Origin: Gemmatimonadota bacterium
GTDB taxonomy: Bacteria > Latescibacterota > UBA2968 > UBA8231
Direction of reading: 5' to 3'
DNA length: 58,155 bases
NCBI GenBank assembly: GCA_018673255.1
Contig: JABHDC010000121.1
Coordinates: forward strand, 1 to 58,155
The position numbers and the translations under genes are program-made. This document shows, in pieces, positions 15,455-33,245 of this stretch (positions within the stretch are counted from its first letter, which is position 1; each line of letters opens with the position of its first letter). The notes under the pieces are model-generated. The model searched no databases. It worked only from the letters and a program-made list of their open reading frames with translations, and was not told the DNA's origin.

Positions 15455-16156
15455 ATGACGACACTGGCCTGGCGACACGATCCAGGAATCTGGCGCGATA
15501 CAAGCAAGGACTTGCAGGCCGCTCTGATCCGTCACGATCAGGATCTGCCCGCCCTCGATCGCGACGACGACGAACGAGAGCGCATGGCTGCAGGCCTCGT
15601 CTCCTACATCCGTGCCAAGGGCACGACCAACCACCAGCCATTCCAGAAGAGCTACGGCGAGGCGCTTGTGCGCCACTGCCCGGACCTGCACGATACCTTC
15701 CACCGCATCATCGTGGATCAGTGGAAACACCAGGGCAAGATCGGCCACTACGAACTGTATGCTGGCCTCGTCATGGGCGATCAGGACCCAGAGATCCTCG
15801 CCCCCACACTCATTGAGATCCATGGTCTACTGCAGACCTGGGACAACGAAGGCTGGTGCCCGTGGACACCGGCCCTGTGGATGCGAATCCTCTGGCTCGG
15901 CCGCGACCAACTCGACTCAGCCGAGACCCTCACCCAGCAACTGCAATACATCGAGGCCCATCTGAACGACAAGGCCCGGTTCCAGGATCGCGAGCCCTTC
16001 TGCCTCATGCACGCCATCGGCCTGATCGATCACCCCATCGCCATCTCCCTGCGCGACCGGTTCACCGAAGCTCTCATGACACGCCAGGAAGCGGATGGCA
16101 GCTGGGGTGACTTCAGCTACATCACCCACACCCTGATCAAACACTGGGCGTTGTAA
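15455..16156 (+). CDS. Uncharacterised protein with alpha/alpha-toroid-like repeats
   Basis: 233 residues, start supported by GGAGGA 6-7 bp upstream. I do not recognise a named family. The C-terminal segment MTRQEADGSWGDFSYITHT resembles the repeat turn of prenyltransferase or squalene-cyclase alpha/alpha barrels (Q.xDGSWG), and other segments (TWDNEGWCPWTPALWMRILWL) share the aromatic, helical style. Only one good repeat is visible, so the fold is a suggestion. There is no signal peptide or membrane helix. It follows the URO-D-like gene closely, and the 94-bp gap holds an imperfect hairpin (15364-15408) and a 12-bp palindrome (15414-15425). Confidence 0.62.
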   Translation: MTTLAWRHDPGIWRDTSKDLQAALIRHDQDLPALDRDDDERERMAAGLVSYIRAKGTTNHQPFQKSYGEALVRHCPDLHDTFHRIIVDQWKHQGKIGHYELYAGLVMGDQDPEILAPTLIEIHGLLQTWDNEGWCPWTPALWMRILWLGRDQLDSAETLTQQLQYIEAHLNDKARFQDREPFCLMHAIGLIDHPIAISLRDRFTEALMTRQEADGSWGDFSYITHTLIKHWAL

Positions 16157-16523
16157 CCAGGAGCTTGAGCTCAGGCGCGGCAGCGTGCATGAGTGGGTGC
16201 AATGCAGGTCCCCTCGTATGCCACTCACCCTGATCCCGGTCAGATGGGGGACGCTCCGCCAGCCCAGCATGTGCGGGGCAGGTTGCCCTGCGTTCTCTGG
16301 CTGCCACCGGAAGGCGCCTGCACGAAGGGCAGGTCAGTCGAGAGTCGGGCCCGAAGGGCGCACGCCAGGACGGCGTGCGCTGATCACCGCCGCAGGATGC
16401 GGCGTTGATCAGCCTCGAGACAGACCGTCGCCCGCAGTGCCAGCGCCTGGAGGTGGCAGCCAGAGAGCGCTTGCACGGATGTCCACTCTGCCCGCACTTT
16501 GTGGCAACCAAGGAGCGATTCCC
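16157..16523 (+). other. Highly structured intergenic leader, candidate structured RNA
   Basis: 367 bp with no supported gene. From 16271 to 16497 the sequence nests inverted repeats. GTGCGGGGCAG (16271-16281) faces CTGCCCGCAC (16488-16497). A 19-bp stem pairs 16290-16308 with 16452-16470, with one G-U pair and no mismatch. GGCGC/GCGCC and GCAC/GTGC form an inner stem (16313-16323 with 16437-16447). Two adjacent apical hairpins follow: 16358-16366 with 16372-16380 (9 bp, loop AGGAC) and 16380-16393 with 16399-16412 (13 of 14 pairs, loop AGGAT). The element ends about 27 nt before the PIG-L start. The orientation is assumed from that gene. It could be a cis-regulatory RNA, a free small RNA or a DNA palindrome element. 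I found no match to RNase P, tmRNA, 6S or SRP RNA core motifs. Confidence 0.45.
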
Positions 16524-17222
16524 ATGTCTGACACCCCCTGCATTGTTGCCGTCGGCGCCCACGCCGCCGACATGGAATTCACCGCCGGCGCCACCTTGCT
16601 CAAACACGTGCGCGCCGGCTGGCAGGCACACATCATCAATCTGACCCTCGGTGAGAAGGGCGCTTCGACCCAGAGTGTGGAAGAGTATTCAGCGCAGAAG
16701 AAGGCCGAAGCCGATGCCTGCGCCCAGATCCTGGGCGCCACCCAGCACTACCTGCCATACAAGGATGGCGAGGTCGACAACACCGACGACGTAGCCCACC
16801 AGATCGCGATCCTGTTCCGGCAGCTACAACCGCAGGTCATCATCACCCACTGGCATGGCTCCATCCACCTGGATCACACCCACTGTTATCATCTGACGCG
16901 GCGCGCCCACTTCATGGCTGCCATCAAGCACTTCGAAGTCGATGGCCTGCCCCGCATGCCGGCGTGCCGTCTCTACTACGCCGACAACTGGGAGGACCCC
17001 GAAGGATTCGAGCCGTATGTCTACGTCGACATCTCCGATGTCTTCGATGACTATGAGCGTGCCTTCAAGTCTTTCGCCATCGGGCGCGGCGAAGGTGGCT
17101 ACCCCTACTGGGATTGGTATCAGGCACGCACGCGCATTCACGGCATTGCGCAGCGCGTGCGGCACGCCCAGGCCTTCGCCATCGACGATTTCGGTAAGAA
17201 TGTGAGCAAGGAACTGCTGTAG
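16524..17222 (+). CDS. PIG-L/LmbE-family protein with altered active site
   Basis: 232 residues. The ATG at 16524 follows AAGGAG at 9 bp; the frame is open far upstream but only this start has a ribosome site. The fold signature is clear: AVGAHAADMEFTAGA at the N-terminus (normally AHPDDxE), then VIITHWHGSIHLDHTHCYHL (the HxDH zinc region). Family members are zinc-dependent N-deacetylases of glucosamine-type substrates such as MshB and BshB. Here H13, D16 and a His of the HLDH motif, the expected zinc ligands, are kept, but the general-base Asp at position 15 is Ala. So either this subfamily uses another base, or it binds without deacetylating. No export signal. It is flanked by structured non-coding sequence on both sides. 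Confidence 0.82.
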   Translation: MSDTPCIVAVGAHAADMEFTAGATLLKHVRAGWQAHIINLTLGEKGASTQSVEEYSAQKKAEADACAQILGATQHYLPYKDGEVDNTDDVAHQIAILFRQLQPQVIITHWHGSIHLDHTHCYHLTRRAHFMAAIKHFEVDGLPRMPACRLYYADNWEDPEGFEPYVYVDISDVFDDYERAFKSFAIGRGEGGYPYWDWYQARTRIHGIAQRVRHAQAFAIDDFGKNVSKELL

Positions 17223-24651: not shown

Positions 24652-24721
24652 ACTGTGTTCATCAGAATCCTGGTTCATTCCTACTTCACAACAATTCTTG
24701 CATCAAATCATGAGGCTGAAA

Positions 24722-27700
24722 ATGATGGATGGTATCAAGCGAACTTCGCACCTGACGGTGTGGTTCGGGACCCTCCTCCTGCTGCTGTCACTGAGCATAG
24801 AGGCTGGTGCCCAGGATCCGCCGCCGGCAGATGGGAACCCACCACCGACCGATGGCAGCCAGCCGCCACCTCCGGGTGACGGTGAGCCCAAGCCACCCGG
24901 CGATGGTACCCAGCAGCCACCCCCGGGTGATGGTGAACCCAAGCCTCCTGGCGATGGTACCCAGCCTCCTCCACCCGGTGATGGCAGCCAGCCACCGCTT
25001 CCAGGCGACGGTGAGCCCAAGCCGCCCGGTGATGGAACCCAGCCGCCACTTCCAGGTGATGGAACCCAACCACCACTTCCGGGTGATGGCAGCCAGCCGC
25101 CGCTCCCAGGTGACGGTGAGCCCAAGCCTCCTGGCGATGGCACTGAGCCTCCTCCTCCAGGTGATGGTACGCAGCCACCGCTTCCAGGCGACGGTGAGCC
25201 CAAGCCGCCCGGTGATGGAACCCAGCCGCCACTTCCAGGTGATGGAACCCAACCACCACTTCCGGGTGATGGTGAACCCAAGCCTCCTGGCGATGGCACT
25301 GAGCCCCCTCCGGGTGATGGTAGCGTCGGCGGTGGGCCGATTCGCACGCAATGTGACGATGACGGCTCCAATTGTCGCGCAGTCGTCGATCTCTGCGACG
25401 AGGCGGGCAACTGCAAAGAGATCGCCGTAGAGGAATGCCGCGAGGACGAGAAGTGTCGTGAACTGCTCGCAGGACCCGGCGCTGGTGGTCCAGGTGAGCC
25501 CGGTGACGGTGGTTTCGAGCCGCCACCCGGTACGGGAGAACCCGGAGATGGTGGTAACAATCCGCCACCGGGTGGTCCCAGTGACGGAGGATTCGAACCG
25601 CCTATTCGTACGGTCTGCGACGATGACGGCGCCAATTGCCGCGCAGTCGTCGATCTCTGTGACGAGGCAGGCAACTGCAAAGAAATCGCGGTAGAAGAGT
25701 GCCGCGAAGACGAGAAGTGTCGTGAGCTGCTCGCAGGACCCGGCGCTGGTGGTCCAGGTGAGCCCGGTGACGGTGGTTTCGAACCGCCACCCGGTACGGG
25801 AGAGCCCGGAGATGGTGGTGGCTTCGAGCCGCCCATCCGTACGGTCTGCGACGATGACGGCACCAATTGCCGCGCAGTCGTCGATCTCTGCGACGAGGCG
25901 GGTGAGTGCAAAGAGATCGCTGTAGAGGAATGCCGCGAAGACGAAAAGTGTCGTGAATTGCTCGCAGGACCCGGCGCTGGTGGTCCAGGTGAGCCCGGTG
26001 ACGGTGGTTTTGAGCCGCCTCCCGGTGGGCCTGATGGTGGGGGCTTCGAACCGCCCATTCGCGAGGTCTGCGACGATGACGGCGCCAATTGCCGTGAGGT
26101 CGTCGATCTCTGCGACGAAGCGGGTGAGTGCAAGGAGATCGCGCTAGAGGAATGCCGCGAGGATGAGAAATGTCGTGAGCTGCTCGCGGGTCCTGGACCC
26201 GGTGGTCCAGGTGAGCCGGGCGACGGTGGTTTCACACCACCCGGGGGACCTGACGGCGGCTTCGAGCCACCCATTCGCGAGGTCTGCGACGATGATGGTG
26301 AAAACTGCCGCGAGATCGTCGATTTCTGTGATGAGGCAGGCGAGTGCAAGGAGATCGCGGTAGAGGAGTGCCGCGAGGACGAGACGTGTCGTGAGCTGCT
26401 CGCGGGTCCTGGGCCTGGTGGCCCGGGTGGTCCCGGTGATGGTGGTTTTGAGCCTCCAATCCGCGAGGTCTGCGATGATGACGGCGCCAACTGCCGCGAG
26501 ATCGTCGATCTCTGTGATGAAGCAGGAGAGTGCAAGGAGATCGCGGTAGAGGAGTGCCGCGAGGATGAGACGTGTCGTGAGCTGCTCGCAGGTCCTGGCG
26601 CTGGTGGTCCAGGTGAGCCGGGCGATGGTGGCTTCACACCACCCGGTGGACCTGACGGCGGTTTCGAGCCACCCATTCGTGAGGTCTGCGATGAAGATGG
26701 TGCCAACTGCCGCGAGATCGTCGATTTCTGTGATGAAGCAGGTGAGTGCAAGGAGATCGCGCTAGAGGAATGCCGCGAGGACGAGAAGTGTCACGACTTG
26801 TTGGCCGGTCCTGGACCTGGCGGTCCGGGTGGGCCGGGAGAGCCCGGCGACGGTGGCCCGGGTGGTCCTGGTGATGGTGGTTTTGAGCCACCCATTCGTG
26901 AGGTCTGCGACGATGATGGTGCCAACTGCCGCGAAATCGTCGATTTCTGTGACGAGGCAGGCGAGTGCAAGGAGATCGCGGTAGAAGAATGCCGCGAGGA
27001 CGAGAAATGTCGCGACCTGTTGGCCGGTCCTGGACCTGGCGGTCCGGGTGAGCCGGGCGACCACAGTCCTGATGGTCCCGGTGATGGTGGTTTTGAGCCG
27101 CCCATCCGTGAGATCTGTGATGAAGACGGCGCCAATTGCCGCGAGATCGTCGATTTCTGTGATGAAGCAGGAGAGTGCAAGGAGATCGCGCTAGAGGAAT
27201 GCCGCGAGGACGAGAAGTGTCGCGACCTGTTGGCCGGTCCCGGACCTGGCGGTCCGGGTGGGCCGGGAGAGCCCGGCGACGGTGGCCCGGGTGGTCCCGG
27301 TGGTGGTGGTTTTGAGCCGCCCATTCGCGAGGTCTGCGATGACGACGGCGCCAATTGTCACGAGGTCGTCGATTTCTGCGACGAAGCGGGTGAGTGCAAG
27401 GAGATCGCGCTAGAAGAATGCCGCGAGGATGAGACATGTCGCGACCTGTTGGCTGGTCCTGGACCTGGCGGTCCGGGTGGACCCGGCGACGGTGGATTTG
27501 AGCCGCCGCAGGAAGGTTCGCTCGGCCATATCATCGACGAGTTGCGCAAGCGCTTCGACGACGATGAACGAGCACGGGTCAGGGTGAAGGATCTCGTCGA
27601 CGAACTGGACAGACCTGAGGATCGTGAGTTCCTCGGACGCCTCGCGGGTCTTGATGGCCAGTTGACCCTCGACGAGTTCGAACAGGCCTTCGGTTCTGGA

Positions 27701-30700
27701 CCGCTGGATCCGCTGACCGATCCGCCAAAATTGGCCTTCTTCGAGGGGCAACTCGACGGGATCGATCTGGGCGAGGGGCTGCTCATCATCAGTCAGGATG
27801 AGTATGAAGTCGCCGAAGATGTTCGCATCGAGCGAATAGATGGAAAGTCGCTCGATGTGGCGGCACTGCTCGATCTGGTCGGCAATCGACCCAAGGTCGC
27901 TGTCGAGTTGAATCCGGATGACGAGGTTCAGCTCCTCATTGTTCTCAGTCGCGTGGATGCCATCGGCAACCAGGACCCGGGGCCTGCGTCGCAGGATTTC
28001 TTCGGACCCGTCGGATTGATCGACGCGGGCAAGATTGTGCTCAGTGGCCCCCGATTCGCGGCCACGGATCGCACGCGGTTTGTCGACGTAGACAATCAGG
28101 CGATCGATCCTGCCTCTCTGGCAGCAGGCACCCTGGTCAGTGTCACGCCGGGTGCGCCTGATGTGGCATCAGGTTCCTTCGATCCGATCGCGATCCGTGT
28201 GCAGGTCGTGGATCCGCGTAAGCCACCACCGGCCCGAGCCGACATCATTACGGGCCACCTGATCAATACCGATCCGGTCGAGCTGGATGGACCGCGGGCG
28301 CAACTCACGGCCCAGACCGGATTCATTGGTGAAGATGGCGGTGCGCTGACGGCCGCCGACATCGCGCGGGGCACCTTTGTCCGCGTCACCACCCGAGCCC
28401 CCGGCTTCGGTGAAGATGCACCGGTTGCCGTCGAGATCGTCGTCCTGGAGGGCGACTTTGCCGACAATCTTCCGGTGCCGCCAGAGGATGACGAAGACAG
28501 TGCACCGAGGGAAGAGATCCGCGTTGAGGGTTTCGTGCAAGCCACCGGCAGCGACTACATCGTGCTGCAGGGCGAGCGTCTGAATCTCGACGCGCGTGTA
28601 TTGGTCTCGGATCTGGGCGGCAGCCGGACCGAGTTGAGCGGTCTGCTGCAGGGCGACCTGCTGGAGCTCGATACCCGGCCCGGTGGTCGTTTCGGCTTTG
28701 TCGTGACCCGTATTCAGGTGATCGACCCATCCGTGCAGACCCTGACGCGGCCTGGTGTGATCGTCGGTGCCTTCGACGGCATCGATGGTGACCAGCTCGT
28801 ACTGGCCGGCCCGTTCTTCCAGGTGCCCTCCGATGCGGAGGTGAAATTGAAAGGCGGCTCAGAGGGTGGCCTGGCTGCACTGGCAAGCGGGGACTATGTC
28901 CGGTTGTCTGCCAGCCCCCCGCGCTTCGATCGGGGCGAAACATTGCCCGTCGCTTTCAAGATCCGTATCGCCACACCACCGAAGGGTGAGCCCGGTCAGG
29001 GTGAACCAGGTGAGCCGGTGGAGCCAGCACCCACGGGTAGCGGGCGACGCGTCGTGGGCTCCTTCCCGGAGGATGGTGATGTGTCGATCCCGACACAGAC
29101 CGCCGTGCAGGTGCAGTTCAATGGCGACGTCAATGGTTTGCTCTTCGAGCCTGACTTCCAGTTTACCCTGTTCCCCGATCCGGTCAGCCTTGGGAGTCTG
29201 CAGATCGGCGCAGATGGTCGCACGATTTCGGCTGAGGTCGAACTGGAGGATGGCGTCGGATACCAATTGGTGGTGTTGAGCCAGAAGACCGGCTTGTTCA
29301 CCGTCCGTTTCACGACGGGCGCGCAGATCGCCACGGCCTCGATCCACGGCGAGATTGCACTGCCACCGGAGCTGCCGAAGCAGGCGCGCTTCGTACCGGG
29401 TGAGTCCTTTGCCGTCCTGCTGGATGAAGCACCAACGGGCGAACTGGACATGCGCAACTTCGACGGCCACGTCATCGCCGGTGTCCCGCTTCAAGGTCCC
29501 AATCTGGTCTTTGAGAGCCTTGAAGCTGGCGACTACTACCTCGTCCTGTTCGTGAACTTTGATCTCGGCCGAGGTGAGTTGGTACAGATCCGTGCCGCGT
29601 ATGATGCCGACGACGACGGGTTGGCAGATGCGATTGCAGTGGGCAGCGGCGAGGAAGTTGAGATCGACCTGGCCCTTGCACTGCCCGCGCCACTGCAGAT
29701 CGTCGCCCTCACACCTGGTGAAGGTGAGACGGGCGTGGGTGTGGCGTCAGAGCTGACCGTCGAATTCAACAAGGCGGCCGAGTTAAGCGTGGAAGACATC
29801 CGTTTCTTCCCGCCCGCAGTTGAGCTCGGTGAACTGAGCCGATCAGCAGATGGCACCGTGTTCCGGTTGCCGTTGACTCTGGCCGACGACACGATCTATC
29901 GCGTCGTCGTTGAGGGTGCCATGGACGAAGAGGGCGGTGCTCTCGGTGGCGCCTCTTCGACAGTCTTCACCACAGCCGCTGACTTCGTTGCCAGTCGGTC
30001 GATCAGTGGTCGTCTCGTCCTGCCGGCGTTGCCTTCGGCTCGCGTCTTTGCCGGTCCGGTCCTGATCGGGGCCCTGCCGGCAGATCGCGTCGATCCGGAT
30101 CGTTTCGGTATCGGCAGCTTTGACGAGTCGGACATCGTCGCTTCTACCGTTGCCACAACAGCGGATTTCCAGATCGACAATGTGCCGGAGGGGGACGTCG
30201 TCATCGCCGCCTTCGTCCGCGTCGAAGTTCCTCGTGGGTACCGCCCGCCGGATCCTCGGCAGCGGACTGAAGGGGACTTCGATCTGGAGGGCAAGCGCTT
30301 CAACGACCAGGTGCTTGAGGTCTTTGATACGCTGGAGTTGTTCGGCTTCTCCGAGACCGATGAGGGCGGGATGCAGATTCTGTCCGCCGGGACCGGAGAG
30401 GCCACGGTCTTTCTGCGCGGCAGCGCTCGCACACGCGAGCAGATCCTGCCGGTTTCGGGTGTAGAGTTTCTGCCCGGAACCGACGCCGTACTGAGCCTGA
30501 CACCGATCGCTGATCCCAGCGGACAGATTGCGGCCATGCGGGTCGAATTGGCGGAGGATGTTCAGGTCGACGACGACATCGTCGCCGATTTGATCGTGCG
30601 CTTCGGCAAAGTGTTGCGCGTCGAGCGCGGCATTGCCGCCATCCAGGCCGCCATCGACGGCCGGCCACTGACTGACTTCACGATTGAGGATGACGGTCAC

Positions 30701-33166
30701 ACGATCATCTTCCCCGTCGTGTTGGAAGCAGGGCACTTCCAGCGGTTCTCCGTGTTCAAGGCAGAGTCCATCGATGGAGGCCGCCTCGAACACCCGATCG
30801 AGTTGGGTCTGAATCTGCTGCTCGGTGATGGTGAAGCACCAAACTTCGCCACCATCGGCGGCACACTCACGTTGCTGACCCTTGATGAAGAGGGACAGGA
30901 ACTGACCGGCGATGCAGCCGACCTCATCGACGAGGCAGCAGCCATTCTGTTCACACAGGATTCCGGTGAGTTGGCGCGAGTGGGTGCAGCCCAGGTCAGC
31001 GCCGATGGCACATTCGAGTTCAGTGATGTGTTACCGGGTGCCTATCAGGTGTTCGCCGAGATCACCACGGCCAGCGGTCAGAAGCTGCGTGTCCTGTACG
31101 ATGGCGACGAGGATGGCCAACCTGATCTGATCGTCCTCGGCGATGCGGGCGGTGAAGTCACAGGGATCGATCTGACCGCCAGCGTCACTGTCTCAACCGA
31201 AGAGGATACCAGTTCGGGCACGACGGTGAAAACGACGCCGCCAGGTGGCAATGCGGATGCTGTGGTCAGTCTTGTATTCGCCTGCGACGACGGACCGGAT
31301 TGCTCGACGATCCAGTCTGATGTGGCCGTCGGCGATGAGGTCGATCTCGATCTGTATGTCACCGGCGCCGCCGATCTGGACGGCTTCAGTGCGAAGTTGC
31401 GCTACGATGCCGACATCCTGGAGTTCGTGTCGGCAAGCGATGCACCTTCGGATCGCACGAACATGCTGCGACGCGATGGGGGTCTGGCTCTGTATCTGCC
31501 GCCACTGCTGCGCGAGCCCGAACTGGAGTATGGTGGTGCAATTCTCAGTGCCACCGAACTCACGGGACCGGATGGGGATGGATTCCTCGGACGATTCCGA
31601 TTCCGCGTCACGGATGAGTTCGAAGGCGCGCAGGTCTTTCTTGAATCAGCGGTCCTGACTTCGGTCACCGGTCGTGACGAACTGACACCAGCCCAGTCGG
31701 CGAAGTTCGCACCCCAGGTCTTCGAAGAGCAGACGAAGGGTGCGATCTCCTTCGACTTCAACAGCGCCAGTGAGGATCAGGAAGAATTCCACCAGGGCTT
31801 CATCACGCCTGGGGATCTGGTCGAAGTCGATCTGTATCTGAATTTCGACAAGATCGGCGAGGATTTCATCGACCTGGCGAACTACTCCGTCACCCTCGAG
31901 TTCGACGATGAGCAGTTGAGCTTCGTCAGCTTTGCGCCGGAGACGGCCGGTGAGACCAACGTATTGTTGGCCGGTGGTGGCCTTGTGCCTCCCTTCCCGG
32001 CGATCGTTGGCAGCAGTTCACTTACCGTCGGTGCGGCCATCCTCGGTGCGACCGAGGCGGTCTCACCGGATTCGAGCGGCCTGATCGGTCGGTTGACGCT
32101 GGCCACAACGGATGCGTTCACTGAGACGGATCTGATGATCACGGGGTACGACGTCAAGTCACTCAATGCCGATCAGCTCAGCGTGTCGACGATCATCATC
32201 GCGCGCATGAGCACGGATGAGATCACCCGGGTTGCTGCCGGCGCCGGAGATGTCGTCGGTGGGGGTGTGATCGGTGACGCCGCCGGATCAGATCTGGATG
32301 GTAGCGGTCTGGTGGACTTCTCCGACTTCTTCCTCTTTGCCGACGCCTTTGGCAAGCAGGCGACCGGGTCCTTCGCGGCCGCCGATCTGGATGGCAGCGG
32401 TCTGGTCGACTTCTCCGACTTCTTCCTCTTCGCCGACAGCTTTGGCAAGTCGGTGGGACGCGTCGCACCGACGCAGCCACTGGCGGCCACCATGGCGCCA
32501 TTGACACTGCAATCGGCCTCGACGGCGGACCATCTGGTGATCAGTCTGCATAGCGACCAGTTGAGGGTGCGCGGTTATGCGGCGCAACTGAGTTACGATC
32601 CGTCCCGCTTTGAATTGCTCGAGGTGTCCGACGAGGGCACCGACCTGCAGGCTCAGGGACGTGAGTCGCTGCTCTGGTCGCAGTCGGAACCAGGGCAGAT
32701 CCTGTGGGCCGGTCATGGAACCGGTGATGCGGGATCGGTGGACGGTGTGCTGGCTGAGTTGCACTTCAGCCCGCTGGACCAGCAAGCCGAGTCACTGTTC
32801 CGTCTGGATGGCGCCATCGTGCGCTCGACAGATGGTGCGATTGTGCAGGTCGAGAATCTCGGAGAGATCAGCAGTCGATGGGTTCCACAGGTCTTCGCAC
32901 TCTCGCCCAACTACCCGAACCCCTTCAACCCGTCTACGACGATCTCGTATCAGTTGCCGGTGGGCAGCAAGATCCGGCTGGAGATCTATGACGTGCTCGG
33001 ACAGAAGGTGCGCACCCTGGTCCAGGGACAGCAGGTCGCCGGCGTGCACCGGGTCGTGTGGGACTCTCGCAACGATCACGGGCAGGCCGTCGGAGCAGGT
33101 GTCTATTTCACCCGCTTCCAGGCCGGTCATTTCCAGCAGGTGAACAAGCTGCTGCTACTGAAGTAG
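24722..33166 (+). CDS. Giant secreted multidomain protein with six-cysteine repeats and type IX-like tail
   Basis: 2,814 residues. I chose the ATG at 24722, since GAGG lies 6 bp upstream; TTG and ATG codons further up lack a site. Order: signal peptide (about 1-31, ending SIEAGAQ); Pro/Gly-rich GDGxxPP head (32-205); ten near-identical repeats (211-906), each with cysteines spaced C-x6-C-x6-C-x5-C-x7-C-x5-C and acidic loops such as CDDDGANC, joined by GPGGPG linkers; an EF-hand-like GLDGQLTLDEFEQAF (near 977); several DUF5666-like beta units (about 1020-1418); two Ig-like SbsA/Big_5-type domains (near 1440-1535 and 1660-1755); two cohesin-like domains (about 2170-2500); a dockerin-like pair of DLDGSGLVDFSDFFLFAD loops (2521-2576); a third cohesin-like stretch; and a C-terminal SPNYPNPFNPST domain ending NKLLLLK. 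That tail is typical of type IX-secreted or FlgD-Ig-like proteins. Likely cell-surface adhesion or matrix. Confidence 0.9.
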   Translation: MMDGIKRTSHLTVWFGTLLLLLSLSIEAGAQDPPPADGNPPPTDGSQPPPPGDGEPKPPGDGTQQPPPGDGEPKPPGDGTQPPPPGDGSQPPLPGDGEPKPPGDGTQPPLPGDGTQPPLPGDGSQPPLPGDGEPKPPGDGTEPPPPGDGTQPPLPGDGEPKPPGDGTQPPLPGDGTQPPLPGDGEPKPPGDGTEPPPGDGSVGGGPIRTQCDDDGSNCRAVVDLCDEAGNCKEIAVEECREDEKCRELLAGPGAGGPGEPGDGGFEPPPGTGEPGDGGNNPPPGGPSDGGFEPPIRTVCDDDGANCRAVVDLCDEAGNCKEIAVEECREDEKCRELLAGPGAGGPGEPGDGGFEPPPGTGEPGDGGGFEPPIRTVCDDDGTNCRAVVDLCDEAGECKEIAVEECREDEKCRELLAGPGAGGPGEPGDGGFEPPPGGPDGGGFEPPIREVCDDDGANCREVVDLCDEAGECKEIALEECREDEKCRELLAGPGPGGPGEPGDGGFTPPGGPDGGFEPPIREVCDDDGENCREIVDFCDEAGECKEIAVEECREDETCRELLAGPGPGGPGGPGDGGFEPPIREVCDDDGANCREIVDLCDEAGECKEIAVEECREDETCRELLAGPGAGGPGEPGDGGFTPPGGPDGGFEPPIREVCDEDGANCREIVDFCDEAGECKEIALEECREDEKCHDLLAGPGPGGPGGPGEPGDGGPGGPGDGGFEPPIREVCDDDGANCREIVDFCDEAGECKEIAVEECREDEKCRDLLAGPGPGGPGEPGDHSPDGPGDGGFEPPIREICDEDGANCREIVDFCDEAGECKEIALEECREDEKCRDLLAGPGPGGPGGPGEPGDGGPGGPGGGGFEPPIREVCDDDGANCHEVVDFCDEAGECKEIALEECREDETCRDLLAGPGPGGPGGPGDGGFEPPQEGSLGHIIDELRKRFDDDERARVRVKDLVDELDRPEDREFLGRLAGLDGQLTLDEFEQAFGSGPLDPLTDPPKLAFFEGQLDGIDLGEGLLIISQDEYEVAEDVRIERIDGKSLDVAALLDLVGNRPKVAVELNPDDEVQLLIVLSRVDAIGNQDPGPASQDFFGPVGLIDAGKIVLSGPRFAATDRTRFVDVDNQAIDPASLAAGTLVSVTPGAPDVASGSFDPIAIRVQVVDPRKPPPARADIITGHLINTDPVELDGPRAQLTAQTGFIGEDGGALTAADIARGTFVRVTTRAPGFGEDAPVAVEIVVLEGDFADNLPVPPEDDEDSAPREEIRVEGFVQATGSDYIVLQGERLNLDARVLVSDLGGSRTELSGLLQGDLLELDTRPGGRFGFVVTRIQVIDPSVQTLTRPGVIVGAFDGIDGDQLVLAGPFFQVPSDAEVKLKGGSEGGLAALASGDYVRLSASPPRFDRGETLPVAFKIRIATPPKGEPGQGEPGEPVEPAPTGSGRRVVGSFPEDGDVSIPTQTAVQVQFNGDVNGLLFEPDFQFTLFPDPVSLGSLQIGADGRTISAEVELEDGVGYQLVVLSQKTGLFTVRFTTGAQIATASIHGEIALPPELPKQARFVPGESFAVLLDEAPTGELDMRNFDGHVIAGVPLQGPNLVFESLEAGDYYLVLFVNFDLGRGELVQIRAAYDADDDGLADAIAVGSGEEVEIDLALALPAPLQIVALTPGEGETGVGVASELTVEFNKAAELSVEDIRFFPPAVELGELSRSADGTVFRLPLTLADDTIYRVVVEGAMDEEGGALGGASSTVFTTAADFVASRSISGRLVLPALPSARVFAGPVLIGALPADRVDPDRFGIGSFDESDIVASTVATTADFQIDNVPEGDVVIAAFVRVEVPRGYRPPDPRQRTEGDFDLEGKRFNDQVLEVFDTLELFGFSETDEGGMQILSAGTGEATVFLRGSARTREQILPVSGVEFLPGTDAVLSLTPIADPSGQIAAMRVELAEDVQVDDDIVADLIVRFGKVLRVERGIAAIQAAIDGRPLTDFTIEDDGHTIIFPVVLEAGHFQRFSVFKAESIDGGRLEHPIELGLNLLLGDGEAPNFATIGGTLTLLTLDEEGQELTGDAADLIDEAAAILFTQDSGELARVGAAQVSADGTFEFSDVLPGAYQVFAEITTASGQKLRVLYDGDEDGQPDLIVLGDAGGEVTGIDLTASVTVSTEEDTSSGTTVKTTPPGGNADAVVSLVFACDDGPDCSTIQSDVAVGDEVDLDLYVTGAADLDGFSAKLRYDADILEFVSASDAPSDRTNMLRRDGGLALYLPPLLREPELEYGGAILSATELTGPDGDGFLGRFRFRVTDEFEGAQVFLESAVLTSVTGRDELTPAQSAKFAPQVFEEQTKGAISFDFNSASEDQEEFHQGFITPGDLVEVDLYLNFDKIGEDFIDLANYSVTLEFDDEQLSFVSFAPETAGETNVLLAGGGLVPPFPAIVGSSSLTVGAAILGATEAVSPDSSGLIGRLTLATTDAFTETDLMITGYDVKSLNADQLSVSTIIIARMSTDEITRVAAGAGDVVGGGVIGDAAGSDLDGSGLVDFSDFFLFADAFGKQATGSFAAADLDGSGLVDFSDFFLFADSFGKSVGRVAPTQPLAATMAPLTLQSASTADHLVISLHSDQLRVRGYAAQLSYDPSRFELLEVSDEGTDLQAQGRESLLWSQSEPGQILWAGHGTGDAGSVDGVLAELHFSPLDQQAESLFRLDGAIVRSTDGAIVQVENLGEISSRWVPQVFALSPNYPNPFNPSTTISYQLPVGSKIRLEIYDVLGQKVRTLVQGQQVAGVHRVVWDSRNDHGQAVGAGVYFTRFQAGHFQQVNKLLLLK
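24815..25330 (+). repeat. Proline-rich coding tandem repeats
   Basis: Imperfect short units encoding GDGTQPPLPGDGEPKPP and variants repeat about 15 times within the giant gene. Whole blocks recur nearly identically (for example 24994-25060 and 25181-25245), which suggests recent duplication. Confidence 0.85.
25336..27510 (+). repeat. Ten tandem copies of a 150-240 bp coding repeat (six-cysteine module)
   Basis: Each copy runs from about PPIRxVCDDDG to LLAGPGxGGPG. The ten copies differ mainly at a few positions (VDL or VDF, IAV or IAL, EKC or ETC) and in linker length. DNA conservation is high, consistent with recent tandem expansion and unequal exchange. Confidence 0.92.
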
Positions 33167-33211
33167 AAACGCGCGCTCGACCAGATCGTCGGGCTCGGCG
33201 TACAACACAAA

Positions 33212-33245
33212 GGCCCCCACCGGTCATGCCGGTGGGGGCCTTTTC
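33212..33245. terminator. Strong intrinsic terminator between convergent genes
   Basis: GGCCCCCACCGG (33212-33223) pairs perfectly with CCGGTGGGGGCC (33229-33240), followed by TTTTC; AAA precedes it, so it could stop transcription from both sides. It ends the giant gene and may also serve the converging fliM operon. Confidence 0.9.

Follow-up and report, generated by a model that had tools for sequence, protein, structure and literature searches.

Small folding repeats are already known from several bacteria, and the locus described here has to be compared with them as well as with a class of regulatory RNAs. The MITE-like ERIC (IRU/RU-1) and YPAL (RU-2) repeats are dispersed intergenic sequences of 100-200 bp that form a long hairpin in the transcript; ERIC is reported to make upstream transcripts less stable, depending on its orientation, and there is no experimental demonstration of a mover (PMC2229807). 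The REP, GTAG and CGTC repeats are described as occurring in inverted pairs with complementary stem variants, some of them within longer palindromes, with landing inside palindromes being described for some REPs and G-T pairs being taken to signal RNA (PMC3733652). Among the Csr/Rsm RNAs, of which RsmZ (PMC4005645) and RsmW (RF02809) are examples, stems carry loops of the form A(N)GGAX closed by C-G, and such a loop with its C-G closing pair is described as the binding site of RsmE (PMC4005645).

The element considered here occupies positions 16271-16497 of the plus strand of the window, i.e. the entire 58,155-nt stretch of contig JABHDC010000121.1 that was analysed. RNAfold and the relatives recovered with covariance models define it as a set of outer helices, a 19-bp arm, an inner rod and three hairpins. 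A previous reading based on the sequence letters alone (the sequence-only reading) had described a 19-bp stem with one G-U, an outer stem, an inner stem and twin hairpins with the loops AGGAC (16367-16371) and AGGAT (16394-16398). The stem scan and RNAfold recover the 19-bp stem, formed by 16290-16308 and 16452-16470, exactly as it had been drawn, and the remaining parts are reproduced by RNAfold. The outer helix pairs 16271-16282 with 16487-16497, and the arm encloses a conserved core with a capping junction (16309-16451). Hairpins H1 (16360-16378) and H2 (16379-16413), which bear the AGGAC and AGGAT loops respectively, are seen both in RNAfold and in the family copies; in the RNAfold drawing the H2 loop takes the form of a GGA triloop with an A-U closing pair. 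A third short hairpin with a GAA loop, H0 (16349-16359), which the previous reading had missed, is seen with RNAfold and RNAalifold and sits at the same junction.

The 227-nt element has an MFE of -152.1 kcal/mol (z -9.11), with none of 200 shuffles reaching so low a value, and its reverse strand folds with an MFE of -146.1 (z -8.61). The longer segment 16157-16530 gives a z-score of -6.88, with none of 100 shuffles as low; its fold also displays a separate hairpin at 16193-16228, downstream of the preceding ORF and ahead of the element. When the 58 kb were folded in 60-nt steps, the most stable 240-nt plus-strand segment was that starting at 16261, by a margin of about 31 kcal/mol. A scan of the window for stems of at least 15 bp (8-base exact seed, arm starts less than 250 nt apart) found three, of 19, 16 and 15 bp, the longest being the arm of the element; among 300 dinucleotide shuffles of the element the longest stem had 15 bp, versus 19 in the element itself. 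Elsewhere in the window, at 33209-33243, a hairpin of 16 bp and a loop of 3 nt lies between convergent ORFs, with runs of A and T flanking its base; its shape is that of a common bidirectional terminator and differs from that of the element. The claim that the fold belongs to no known class is borne out by Rfam, which across the whole window returned no match above the curated cut-off; two weak matches fall below it, Bacillaceae-1 (RF01690) on the minus strand, which reaches 24.7 of the required 35 bits, and RsmW (RF02809) on the plus strand, which reaches 20.9 of 52.

Changes between copies of the element have been compensated in its helices, as would be expected of the structured element that the sequence-only reading had proposed. 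In an alignment of eight copies (A5), whose rows were delimited with the coordinates of the model and then aligned on their sequence, 95.0% of the cells are paired, a few structure pairs having been adjusted before this count, and 61 cells show double changes as against 17.3 in shuffles; sliding one strand by 1-3 columns lowers the pairing to 31-42%. RNAalifold, using its own structure prediction on A5, agrees with 59 pairs, 32 of which have at least one double change. The structure-fitted alignment A3, whose 14 rows include the self-match and partial rows, is 93.8% paired, with 195 double changes versus 58.6, its helices 1 and 2 having 87.5% and 77.4% of their cells paired. Pairing in these counts is favoured by the copies having been found with a model that carries the structure of the window copy; all seven non-window copies of A5 are also retrieved at E <= 1.1e-8 by a plain DNA search with a 74-nt core, the consensus of which was composed from those same seven copies. 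The z-scores and the covariation together rule out a chance fold. Protein coding on the opposite strand was likewise rejected: ORFs do run across the element, yet when one of them served as a protein query none of the 23 candidates had E <= 1, and single-base indels separate the copies.

On the plus strand of A5 there are 25 G-U cells to 5 A-C cells, or 19:5 without one column (6 G-U cells) that RNAalifold pairs differently, and on A3 minus the self-match the ratio is 48:20; as the copies are related, these cells are not independent events. Of 13 copies, nine also have a plus strand that is more stable than the minus strand by over 0.3 kcal/mol; in three the two strands are within 0.3 of each other, and in one the plus strand folds worse. 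Because of the excess of G-U over A-C and the better folding of this strand, the comparison points to the plus strand being the one read as RNA, within the limits set by related copies. These two strand preferences, taken with the covariation and the invariant letters of loops and stems, are also what speaks for a stand-alone small-RNA gene family, occasionally duplicated to new places, the fold of which would act in trans. We regard this alternative as rather unlikely, given that the non-orthologous copies have no common upstream sequence able to hold a promoter, that no sigma-70 promoter or terminator pattern is seen around the window copy (16050-16600), and that the arms are not copied along with the core.

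The family was delineated with two covariance models. The first (R1), built from the window copy alone, was run over 64 genomes from the phylum to which a named Latescibacterota MAG (G001, L001) belongs and found matches in five of them, namely G060 (6 places, including the best match, E 1.6e-27), G059 (3) and G064, G056 and G061 (1 each). The second (R2), built from eight copies and run on 35 of the 64, recovered the same five carriers and G063; its 15 rows, one of which is the opposite-strand reading of another, correspond to 14 places, with 6 in G060, 4 in G059 and 1 each in G056, G061, G063 and G064. All copy counts are lower bounds, only part of the candidates in each genome having been scored. 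The DNA search with the 74-nt core matched 8 of the 64 genomes, i.e. the six carriers plus G032 and G050, whose matches of 26 and 37 bases, respectively, were not counted as copies. By blast, identity to the typed consensus is 76-94% for the seven best copies from other genomes, while the window copy itself, compared in the same way with six relatives, yields short pieces only (best E 0.0145). A search of 11 genomes with a 148-nt consensus also detected 3'-half fragments in G061, G064 and G059; consensus matches with E of 0.0026-0.05 were not counted, and neither were the 3'-half fragments of G064 and G059, which were left out of the loop scoring. In G064 a second 3' half follows the full copy in tandem (C555:5440-5498; L129:5440-5498). 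Several copies have decayed, with the hairpins lost in some. The window holds no second copy apart from the minus strand of the element and matches of E 0.12 or worse. Beyond the phylum R2 found nothing in 46 genomes sampled via loci from other groups (46 of the 76 loci L005-L080), under strict filters and with no positive control. An origin from phages or plasmids was rejected as well: neither the window copy nor the consensus had a match there, and viral contigs contained no exact match to the paired-loop pattern and no PIG-L relative.

The sequence-only reading had regarded the element as a possible cis-regulatory RNA of the PIG-L deacetylase gene downstream. This gene (16524-17222, plus strand; Pfam PF02585, E 4.7e-26) lies outside the element and starts 26 nt downstream of its end, the element being in the sense orientation, which is the arrangement that favours a cis-regulatory leader; on the other side of the element, an ORF matched by neither Pfam nor NCBIfam has its stop 114 nt before the element begins. 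The nearest PIG-L genes among named genomes are from Candidatus Latescibacterota and Handelsmanbacteria MAGs (four loci, 64-70% identical). Neither R1 nor R2 finds the element in the genomes of these four closest comparable relatives, and neither of the two window ORFs that precede PIG-L is found around PIG-L in any of the four loci; the three with a resolved upstream gene (all but L004) have an ORF of 644-710 aa ending 12, 13 and 80 nt before PIG-L. Closer PIG-L proteins, 73-90% identical (P0001-P0010), are present in the protein collection, the comparison of the element itself resting on the four relatives of 64-70% identity. None of the six carriers has a PIG-L of the window type at E <= 1e-80, and other copies lie at or past stop codons and in the opposite orientation. 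Since the genomes of these relatives have no match to the element and their loci lack the two upstream ORFs of the window, no tie between the element and PIG-L is apparent within this comparison; copies elsewhere adjoin unrelated genes in both orientations. The proposed cis-regulation of PIG-L is thus not supported, and a leader function is extremely unlikely. Farther downstream, the window encodes a 2822-aa ORF (24698-33166) with weak matches to FlgD_ig, Big_5 and cohesin domains, which is perhaps a large surface protein.

The gene neighborhoods of the copies are instead those of a dispersed sequence, with copies at unrelated gene borders in both orientations and at most 6 R2 places per genome. 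In G060 one copy is upstream of a gene that resembles DNA polymerase IV weakly and below the cut-off; another, in reverse, overlaps the end of a gene of the DNA polymerase III alpha type, which shows the Pfam DNA polymerase III alpha domains and which we take to be dnaE2-like; and others lie just before a radical SAM gene of the PA0069 family, before tex, and across the end of DegT. Outside G060, copies are situated after a cytochrome-type gene (G059), by an isochorismatase gene (G064) and just after a sugar-transferase gene (G061). At three such places relatives differ by insertion polymorphism. The border between the dnaE2-like and radical SAM genes is occupied by an inverted pair of copies in G060 (L125:16981-17596) and G059 (L127:9379-9882), and in G061, G063 and G064 the two genes stand 5-6 nt apart without copies. 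The border between the DegT and isomerase-like genes has a copy in G060 but none in G059, where the two proteins are 83% and 85% identical, respectively. A copy after the cytochrome-type gene of G059 has no counterpart in the G060 or G064 locus, the identity of the downstream neighbor not being established at this place. Gain and loss are not told apart by these comparisons, and absence in a relative could be a loss. Flanking sequence is shared by 2 of the 91 pairs among 14 copies, both of them orthologous (G064/G063 and G060c/G059b), the next best pair having a z of 3.8. Empty sites are seen, but the flanks are too diverged to fix the ends of the element. Presence and absence between relatives, unrelated flanks and decayed copies thus together amount to the behavior of a dispersed repeat.

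The oddest feature of the family is that the arms are unrelated between most copies and yet complementary within each. Across the 28 pairs formed by eight copies the identity of the arms is 0.39-0.63, as against shuffled means of 0.41-0.53, whereas over the same pairs the core is 65-88% identical in global alignments. By eye, the arms of each copy are complementary to one another over about 14-20 bp. The arm sequence of the window is not common to the non-orthologous copies, and terminal inverted repeats common to the copies were not found in these 28 pairs, while the positions nearest to the core keep some letters. Established arms can be passed on by descent, as the orthologous copies of G063 and G064 have 5' flanks that hardly differ as far as the arm. 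In the DegT copy of G060 the two arms match along some 43 nt, a stretch that includes the final codons and the stop of DegT, and none of 2000 shuffles did as well. A comparison of this copy with the empty site of G059 gave a weak resemblance, both for the near arm (p 0.03) and for the reversed far arm (p 0.02).

Three origins of the arms remain, namely landing in palindromes, inverted copying of the target, and fast compensatory evolution under selection for the rod. Either of the first two would be at work in a mobile RNA-structured element whose arms are made anew at each landing, by inverted target copying or by landing inside palindromes, such that the rod is rebuilt round a constant, readable cap; as a specific proposal we hold this to be improbable. 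A further possibility suggested by the dispersed hairpins and inverted pairs is a repeat of the REP/RAYT or IS200/IS605 type, propagated as a single-strand hairpin, complementary stem variants and insertion into palindromes being described for REPs (PMC3733652). However, the element measures about 225 nt as opposed to a unit of 20-40 bp, and Y1_Tnp, the sole transposase family searched for, is present in 4 of the 13 genomes searched and in none of the six carriers. A RAYT/IS200 mover is therefore without support, and we consider a REP-type origin very unlikely.

The two GGA-containing loops had been read as the mark of CsrA/RsmA proteins, and they do fit the rule of an A(N)GGAX loop on a stem for CsrA/RsmE (PMC4005645). 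The loops themselves are real, and a protein or RNA reader is predicted for them. Loops were scored in 16 copies, comprising the window copy, the fragment of G061 and all 14 places found by R2. Of these, 13 carry GGA in the loop of H1 and 10 in that of H2; 9 have it in both. The variants observed are AGGAC, AGGAT, AGGGAA and AGGGAT, closed by C-G, together with TGGA instead of AGGA in H1 of two copies (G060f and G056) and AAGAT in H2 of one. CsrA (PF02599) is encoded by 22 of the 64 genomes of the phylum and was detected in one of the six carriers, G060; as the genomes may be incomplete, the absence of CsrA or of a transposase from any one of them may be a gap. Both loops are kept in 5 of 6 copies of G060; in the other five carriers, where no CsrA was detected, 3 of 9 copies keep both, a hint, too small to weigh, that loop retention tracks CsrA.

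These observations bear on the suggestion that the element might be a candidate Csr/Rsm-type RNA titrating CsrA through its two GGA loops. The fit of the C-G-closed loop variants to the rule, the greater retention of both loops in the CsrA-bearing genome, small as the numbers are, and the sub-threshold RsmW match are all in keeping with it. Against it stand the presence of CsrA in a single carrier, the restriction to only two GGA hairpins with no enrichment of GGA in the element (5 occurrences versus 4.2-5.0 expected), and the aberrant letters of H1 in two copies and of H2 in one. Furthermore, the csrA gene of G060 adjoins fliW and a gene with a flagellin domain (L108:1426-3141), and in gene arrangements of this sort CsrA is usually held by FliW. 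Thus, of the proposed titration the shape of the loops stands, and the part assigned to CsrA is weakened by intact loops where CsrA was not detected; we deem a function of this kind quite improbable. The interpretation offered by the sequence-only reading is, as a whole, partly supported.

Thus, in conclusion, the element is probably a low-copy, dispersed and non-autonomous repeat of gene borders, which would be moved in trans, fold as RNA and ride on the mRNAs of its neighbors. In such a scheme some machinery acting in trans would move the element, and a transcript, in the window one of the plus strand, would fold into a long rod capped by a three-hairpin junction with two AGGAY loops. Carried on flanking mRNAs, this fold may alter their stability or translation somewhat in the manner of ERIC, and a protein or an RNA may read the two loops. 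Several points weigh against this dispersed-repeat interpretation: no mover was found, Y1_Tnp being absent from all the carriers; the ends are not common to non-orthologous copies, unlike those of a usual MITE; the copy number is low, even if the counts are minimal; no target-site duplication was fixed, and absences in relatives might reflect loss; and the want of a sigma-70 promoter or terminator pattern around the window copy counts here too. The family adds a covariation-supported structure without an Rfam match from a mostly uncultured lineage. The puzzle of its arms could, once explained, reveal either a new mode of DNA insertion or unusually fast compensatory evolution, and, as CsrA-like loops are kept in some genomes without a detected CsrA, one may ask which other molecule recognises them.

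Of the systems introduced above, the ERIC/YPAL-type repeats resemble the element in size range, intergenic position, dispersal and the long hairpin of the transcript (PMC2229807), and differ from it in that the element has a conserved middle and non-conserved ends, a three-hairpin cap and few copies, with shared terminal repeats or target duplication not being established. With the REP, GTAG and CGTC repeats it has in common the inverted pairs, the complementary stem variants and the G-U signature of RNA (PMC3733652), but it is much longer, and no Y1 transposase was found in its carriers. The Csr/Rsm RNAs share the C-G-closed A(N)GGAX loops on stems (PMC4005645; RF02809), whereas the element has only two such hairpins, set on a long rod, occupies no fixed locus, and occurs in five of six carriers without detected CsrA. 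The likeness to Bacillaceae-1 RNA (RF01690) consists of two UCCUG-loop hairpins on the minus strand of the element, at a score well short of the cut-off, and the Rfam consensus of that RNA has no long rod. What counts as new, its absence from print being weakly tested, is the combination of a constant cap with copy-specific complementary arms.
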